From: an uncultured Clostridia bacterium
GTDB lineage: Bacteria; Bacillota; Clostridia; Christensenellales; UBA1242
DNA: 64,000 nt
Assembly (NCBI GenBank): GCA_947053595.1
Contig: CAMRSX010000006.1
Coordinates: 1 to 64,000, forward strand
Direction of reading: 5' to 3'
The notes beneath the pieces were generated by a model that saw only the letters and a program-made list of their open reading frames with translations, ran no database searches and was not told the origin of the DNA. This document shows positions 58,294-60,725 of the stretch, in pieces. Numbering within the stretch: the stretch's first letter is position 1; each line of letters starts with the position of its first letter. The translations under genes were made by a program, and so were the position numbers.

Positions 58294-59729
58294 ATGAATC
58301 ACATTGCACTGTATCGAAAATACAGACCCAAAACCTTTGAAGAGGTGATTGGACAAGACCACATCACAAAAACCTTGCAAAATCAGATTTTAAACAATCA
58401 GGTTGGGCACGCATATCTTTTCACTGGCACAAGAGGCACGGGCAAAACAAGCATTGCAAAAATTTTTGCAAGGGCTGTCAACTGCCAAAGCCCTGTGCAT
58501 GGCTCGGCTTGTGGGCAGTGCGAAAACTGCCAGCGCTTGCAGCAAGAAAACGACATCAACATCATTGAAATTGACGCAGCTTCCAACAACAAGGTGGATG
58601 ACATCCGTCAAATTCGTGAAAAAGTGAAGTTTATGCCTGTTGGCGCAAAATATAAGGTTTACATTGTGGACGAGGTGCACATGCTGTCAGACAGTGCGTT
58701 CAATGCCCTCTTAAAAACTTTGGAAGAGCCTCCAGAATATGTCATCTTCATCTTGGCAACAACAGAGGTGCACAAACTTCCGCAAACCATCCTTTCAAGA
58801 TGCGTGAGGTTTGATTTTAGGCTGGTGAGTGTGGACGAGCTTGTCAAGCACTTGGCAAGGGTGTTCAACAAAGAAGGCATTAAATATGACGACGAAAGTT
58901 TGAAAATCATTGCCAGCACCGGCGAGGGCAGCGTGAGAGATACGCTTTCCATTGCAGACAGCATTGCAAGTTATGCCCAAGGCGACATAACCAAAGAAAA
59001 GACGCTGCAAGTGCTGGGAACCACCGACCACAACCTGATTGTCAACTTCTTTGCCAAACTGCAAGAAAAAGAGGTGGGCGGAGTGCTTACGCTTATTGAC
59101 CAAATTGAAAAAGAAGGCAAAAACTTGGCAGTGTTTGCAAAAGATTTGTCAAAACATTCCAGAAACTTGTTGGTTTGCAAATCTTGTGACAACGCGGGCG
59201 AAATTTTGAATTTAACCGACGACGTGTTTGAGATGTATAAAACCCAATCGGAAAAGTTTGAAGAGAAAGACCTCATCAGATATATGCAAGTTTTTGGAAG
59301 TGCAGAAGGCGAACTTAGATACACCCTCTCAGTGCGACTTCTTTTGGAAACCACTTGCCTGACAGCAATGCTGGGGCTTGACGTAAAAAAAAACTGAAAA
59401 TTGAGAAAGACACAACCAAACTTTCAGCCAACAATGTTTGGGGAAAGGTTGTACTGTTTTTGAAAGAACACAAAAAAGTGGCGCTTCACATCGCGTGCGG
59501 CGACATCACCAACGCCAAAATTGAAGACGGAAAACTGGTCATCCGCTCTTGCGACGACTTTTTGATTGACATCTTGGAAAACGGCAGGAAGGAAATTGAG
59601 GCGGCAATACGCTGGCAGGGGCTGGAACTTAAGTTTGAAGTTGTGAAGTTTGAAAGCAAGCAGCAAAAAATTGATAAAGACATGAAAAAACTGAAAGATT
59701 TTTTTGGAAAAGTTGAGATGGAAGGTTGA
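58294..59729 (+). CDS. dnaX: DNA polymerase III gamma/tau subunit; 0-frame product ends at 59397, tau-like extension to 59729 requires a -1 frameshift at the A9 tract 59385-59393
   Basis: 0-frame 367-aa product LYRKYRPKTFEEVIGQDHITKTLQNQI, GTRGTGKTSIAKIFARAVNC, Zn-binding Cys; TGA at 59395-59397 right after A_AAA_AAC; -1 frame reads LKIEKDTTKLSANNVWGKVVLFLKEHKKVALHIACGDITNAKIEDGKLVI... resembling the DnaX C-terminal domain. Confidence 0.85.
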
Positions 59730-60296: not shown

Positions 60297-60725
60297 ATGA
60301 TTACAGATTACAGAAAACAACATATTTGGGCTGTTGCAGAGTTGATGAAAAAGTCTGCCCTTGAAAACGGGAAAACAGAGCAAGAGGCAAATGAGCTCTA
60401 TACTTTGGGACTTTTGCATGACATTGGCTATGAGTTTGCCGAGCCAAAAGATTACTTCTTCCATAATCAAATCGGGGGGGGGATTTTAAAGGAGCAAGGC
60501 TATAAATATTGGCAGGAAATCTATTGGCACGGCGTTGCAAACAGTCCATATAAGAGTGAATTTTTGGATGTCCTAAACTGGGCAGATATGCACATTGACA
60601 GCGAGGGAAATTATGTTTCTTTTGACGGCAGATTGGAAGAAATTTCACAAAGATATAATGTGCCAATTGACCAGCTTGACAGCAAACCAATTGTGGATGA
60701 GTTGAAAGCAAGGGGATTTAATTAA
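60297..60725 (+). CDS. HD-domain (HDIG-type) phosphohydrolase-like protein (142 aa)
   Basis: LYTLGLLHDIGYEF HD motif; SD GGAGG before the ATG; contains a coding G9 tract. Confidence 0.8.
   Translation: MITDYRKQHIWAVAELMKKSALENGKTEQEANELYTLGLLHDIGYEFAEPKDYFFHNQIGGGILKEQGYKYWQEIYWHGVANSPYKSEFLDVLNWADMHIDSEGNYVSFDGRLEEISQRYNVPIDQLDSKPIVDELKARGFN

Follow-up and report, generated by a model that had tools for sequence, protein, structure and literature searches.

Homopolymer contingency loci are known in Campylobacter jejuni, Helicobacter and Neisseria (PMC3025981, PMC2823697, PMC5084427), where a genome carries numerous poly-G/C tracts, the coding tracts switch reading frames and some tracts lie in promoters. 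Helicobacter pylori sabA varies in phase through repeat tracts in both its promoter and its coding region (PMC2715451). In the gut commensal Bifidobacterium breve, an actinobacterium, coding poly-G tracts of G9-G12 turn the frames of pilus clusters ON and OFF by replication slippage, which has been measured (PMC9187656).

The locus described here is a G9 tract within a small HD-domain gene of an uncultured clostridial genome, and it is proposed to belong to the same class. It differs from the Campylobacter, Helicobacter and Neisseria loci in lineage (uncultured Clostridia with genomes of 0.7-1.5 Mb), in the retention of MutS, in the tight clustering of the tract lengths of this genome around 8-9, and in the putatively switched genes, which include several small metabolic enzymes besides lipoproteins and glycosyltransferases. 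Compared with the pilus clusters of B. breve, the tracts are genome-wide, both coding and promoter-borne, and found in unrelated bacteria in which slippage is presumed rather than measured; compared with sabA, C8-9 tracts lie directly between the −35 and −10 boxes of many unrelated genes, with a presumptive effect on expression. The passages found for Clostridia terms in a 2025 review concern the invertible promoters of C. difficile, and a search of the open literature returned no report of poly-G contingency loci for these uncultured Clostridia, which is weak evidence because most subscription papers fall outside such a search. The mechanism is known; what appears to be new is the lineage, together with the proportion of small metabolic enzymes in the set of putatively switched genes.

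The G9 tract and its reading frames

The window, namely the whole 64-kb stretch of DNA analysed, contains the following parts of the locus:

60474..60482, + strand: G9 homopolymer forming the Gly-Gly-Gly codons 60-62; candidate switch by slipped-strand mispairing, in the ON state at G9; four other species have the tract at these codons
60297..60725, + strand: HD-domain protein gene, the putatively switched gene; 142 aa, stop codon included in the coordinates; Pfam, AlphaFold and HD-fold matches
60297..60473, + strand: 5' part, read whatever the state of the tract; residues 1-59 with conserved H9, H41-D42 and H56
60483..60725, + strand: 3' part, lost if the tract is out of frame; conserved H78 and D97

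The first-pass annotation had reported ATC GGG GGG GGG ATT at 60474-60482 of an HD-domain gene, which is exact, and had noticed no other comparable G run in a stretch encoding glycine mostly by GGC or GGA. Both descriptions hold, no other G or C run in the window reaching a length of six (next come twelve runs of 5) and the glycine codons of the window open reading frames of 250 or more codons amounting to 847 GGC, 348 GGA, 201 GGT and 170 GGG, so that GGG makes up 11% of the total. GGG-GGG-GGG is used in one of the 24 Gly-Gly-Gly stretches of the window.

The products computed for successive tract lengths are 68 aa for G7, 63 for G8, 142 for G9, 69 for G10, 64 for G11 and 143 for G12, the full-length protein being obtained, within this range, from G9 and G12 only. 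Since G8 gives 63 aa and G10 gives 69 aa, both single-base slips truncate the protein, as the annotation had read from the codons. In the mechanism we favour, slipped-strand mispairing during replication would add or remove one G: the complete HD protein would be made at G9 or G12 (ON), whereas at G8 or G10 translation would stop a few codons beyond the tract, leaving a product of 63-69 aa (OFF).

The HD-domain protein

The full-length protein scores 31.1 bits against the Pfam HD profile (PF01966, cut-off 22), and the profile match together with the conserved H...HD...D residues places it in this family; the HDIG domain (TIGR00277) scores below its curated cut-off (16.3 versus 27.6 bits). Seven homologues all retain H9, H41, D42, H56 and H78, and six of the seven also retain D97. 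The AlphaFold model is all-helical with a mean pLDDT of 95.4 and sets the tract within helix 50-66. Among solved structures, Foldseek ranks YqeK-type HD hydrolases and HD-GYP or PgpH domains highest; these matches are weak, with E 0.0065 at best and, for the top YqeK-like entries, E values of 0.0065-0.08 and TM scores of 0.5-0.6. With the YqeK-like and related phosphohydrolases (PDB 8jk9, 3ccg, 2o08) the protein has in common Pfam HD and the HD fold, at a Foldseek probability of 1.00, but the resemblance is limited to E 0.0065 or worse, TM about 0.5-0.6 and 12-18% identity, and the protein is shorter, at 142 aa. Assignment to an anti-phage defence family was considered and rejected, PADLOC having returned nothing beyond a borderline Cas3 HD match (E 0.0057) judged to be fold-level noise.

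The computed OFF product stops short of H78 and D97, and a protein of 63-69 aa deprived of these two conserved residues should therefore be inactive, to judge from residue conservation.

The neighbours of the gene in the window are ebfC (ybaB) and recR. It is found between dnaX and ebfC in one sister species (G003), and elsewhere in other species, beside a deaminase, a serine hydrolase or a second HD gene. Its occurrence is patchy (16 of 112 genomes of the genus), and it is fragmentary in some species. In one homologue (G062, L131 2950-3010) the frame is broken at an A8 and at a T8, both close to the 5' end of the gene, which may reflect decay or other homopolymer switches, and two short matches restricted to the C-terminal part of the protein, residues about 104-142 (L033 on G036:C7 and L159 on G069:C4), are probably gene remnants.

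Tract states in related species

Homologues were drawn from the same genus and from named gut metagenome-assembled genomes, with one genome per species, so that the differences in tract length described here are differences between species. The tract occupies identical HD codons in five species; it is in frame in three and one base too long in two:

Window HD gene: G9, ON
Orthologue in G003 (L127): G9, ON
Orthologue in G139 (L126): G9, ON
Orthologue in G001 (L135): G10, OFF
Orthologue in G024 (L133): G9 followed by T, one base over (the frame would require the loss of one G), OFF

Downstream of the tract, both OFF genes keep an open, conserved frame as far as the natural stop. The tract-length comparison that the annotation had called for thus gives, at the level of species, ON at G9 in three, OFF by one additional base in two, and an undamaged frame downstream. 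Its other proposed check, on homologue codons, gives a concordant answer: the closest tract-free homologues encode the corresponding I/V-G-G-x site with GGT, GGC and GGA (for example, GGT GGC GAA or GGC GGA CTT). A coding demand for Gly-Gly-Gly was discarded as the cause of G9, because homologues use other glycine codons.

On the tree of HD homologues four changes of tract state are needed, at least three of them on well-supported branches, so the tract was gained or lost more than once at this site. Given these repeated gains and losses and the patchy, fragmentary distribution of the gene, some of the OFF copies might be decaying.

Poly-G/C tracts across the genus and competing readings

Tracts were located by pattern search and then read from the fetched stretches, and the ON and OFF states cited were checked against the reading frames. 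The 1.17-Mb genome that contains the window (G000) has eight G/C runs of 6, two of 7, five of 8, seven of 9 and none longer. By extrapolating the run-length decay of the window to the genome, 0.46 runs of at least 8 and 0.058 of at least 9 are expected, whereas the genome has 12 and 7 (Poisson P about 1e-13 and 4e-13, respectively); a first-order Markov model is more lenient, allowing each genome about 9.6 G runs of this minimum length of 8, yet its predictions for runs of 5 and 6 are several times too high. Eight of the twelve long runs are coding and four lie in promoter spacers. Six coding tracts are in frame, namely those of the HD gene, a beta-lactamase-family gene, a P-loop protein, a cupin and two lipoproteins with Listeria-Bacteroides repeats, and two are out of frame (OFF), in a PNPOx-family gene encoding a flavin-oxidase-like protein and in a lipoprotein signal peptide. 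The promoter tracts, all C8-9, separate a TTGACA or TTGACT −35 box from a −10-like box with spacers of 15, 16, 16 and 19, and the first gene downstream of one of them encodes a glycosyltransferase; the tract of the HD gene itself is coding and involves no such spacer. The MutS N-terminal domain is found in 97 of 101 genomes, this one included, and loss of mismatch repair, as judged on MutS, was therefore set aside as an explanation for the tract set.

Three sister species (G001, G003, G024), for which all listed tracts of at least 8 were read except those cut by contig ends, show the same pattern, with lengths peaking at 9 and promoter spacers mostly of 16-17, and coding tracts occur in both ON and OFF states in the four species surveyed. 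Out-of-frame genes keep both halves intact; examples from G001 encode a GNAT acetyltransferase, a metallo-beta-lactamase-fold protein and an ATP-grasp-like protein (family names by inspection). By inspection of the frames, the tracts of L018, L026 and L093 are OFF. A tract is present in both members of orthologous pairs encoding the P-loop protein, the PNPOx-like protein, a serine hydrolase and two NUDIX families, and the state of a deaminase gene differs between G024 (G8, ON) and another species, G142 (G10, OFF). G001 also has a family of similar promoters of the type TTGATA-N9-G(8 to 11)-TATACT (L084, L112, L113, L120-L124), several of them preceding lipoprotein genes, in which tract lengths of 8 to 11 coexist inside one genome.

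On the scale of the genus (112 genomes, one per species), runs of at least 8 outnumber those of 6 in 28 of 61 genomes, compared with 2 of 40 from other families. The pattern TTGACN{0,4}C8 matches 101 times in these 61 genomes and its reversed control 5 times, the corresponding counts in other families being 6 and 3, with the variable gap doubling some sites for pattern and control alike; tracts between −35 and −10 boxes are thus commoner than chance.

These distributions bear on the strongest of the alternatives, in which a mutational tendency of the lineage lengthens G runs, the HD tract has no regulatory role and its out-of-frame copies are pseudogenes on their way out. The patchy and partly fragmentary gene, the repeated gain and loss of its tract and the scarcity of long runs in about half of the genomes of the genus, where the run-length excess is absent, are in keeping with this view. 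However, simple decay of run lengths does not yield genomes in which long runs outnumber G6 runs, nor does neutral lengthening account for C tracts placed specifically between promoter boxes, for tracts at identical codons across several species and gene families, for the intact 3' frames of both OFF HD genes or for a retained MutS, and we regard it as unlikely.

An error of sequencing or assembly in the tract or in its length is a good deal less probable. Poly-G is difficult for Illumina chemistry, which produces run-on G reads (PMC9187656), and a tract one base longer in an assembly from short reads could have been assembled wrongly. Of the 33 tracts of G001, six (L066, L084, L112, L117, L121, L122) fall no more than 75 bases from the end of a contig, where 0.23 are expected, and one of these ends (L066) resembles run-on G; such breaks may be read alternatively as poly-G read failure, as real length heterogeneity or as the effect of repeated promoters, the last two being compatible with genuine tracts. 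Against an artefact, the same site carries the tract in five independently assembled species, and the frame is exactly right in three of them. Contig names of the NODE/cov type (L126, L127, L133, L135) indicate short-read assemblies, which are usually reliable for homopolymers of 9.

Programmed slippage, by which a fixed share of transcripts or ribosomes would slip at the tract to give a constant ratio of products and no heritable switch, has a probable precedent just upstream. The dnaX open reading frame (58294-59397) has an A9 (59385-59393) at its end, with its C-terminal part continuing in another frame to 59729, and both the A9 and the frame break are identical in G003 (L127 2641-2649), so that the A9 is probably a conserved slippage or frameshift site for long and short forms and this genome probably contains sites of that kind. 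Between species the HD tract differs in length and in frame state, whereas that of dnaX, like its broken frame, is alike in both species compared, and promoter-spacer tracts are beyond the reach of programmed slippage, which makes this the least probable reading of all.

None of these three alternatives explains promoter placement, orthologous sites and mixtures of ON and OFF states together. Phase variation at the HD tract is well supported by comparison: the tract is longer than chance would give, a single-unit change switches the computed frame, and ON and OFF lengths occur at the same site among five species, three of the features expected of a contingency locus. We consider it very probable, on genomic grounds, that the G9 is a translational phase-variation switch and that it belongs to a genome-wide set of poly-G/C contingency loci, acting on frames or on −35/−10 spacing, in a genus of uncultured gut Clostridia; reversible slippage inside populations and an effect of promoter spacing on expression would follow. 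The phase-variation candidate put forward by the annotation is therefore borne out by anatomy and species comparison, although what had been seen as one switch belongs to a genome with a dozen tracts.

Nucleotide-related genes with tracts in the genus include those of the HD hydrolase, a deaminase of the cytidine/deoxycytidylate type, NUDIX hydrolases, the P-loop protein and thymidylate kinase. The last (PF02223; L078, G001:C1:130495) carries an in-frame G9, which is surprising in a usually essential gene. It is conceivable, if rather doubtful, that phase variation in this genus does not mainly concern surface structures and that small enzymes recurrently poly-G-switched in several species, several of them nucleotide-related, let populations hedge their bets in nucleotide metabolism, perhaps as a protection against phages.

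If the preferred reading of phase variation is true, a large genus of uncultured gut Clostridia would possess poly-G contingency loci on the scale of Campylobacter or Neisseria, despite small genomes and the presence of MutS. A single assembly would then show many genes in an arbitrary one of their expression states, and genes annotated as frameshifted in such metagenome-assembled genomes would often be switched off rather than dead. Dozens of concrete sites are thereby available at which switching within the gut is measurable from existing metagenome reads.
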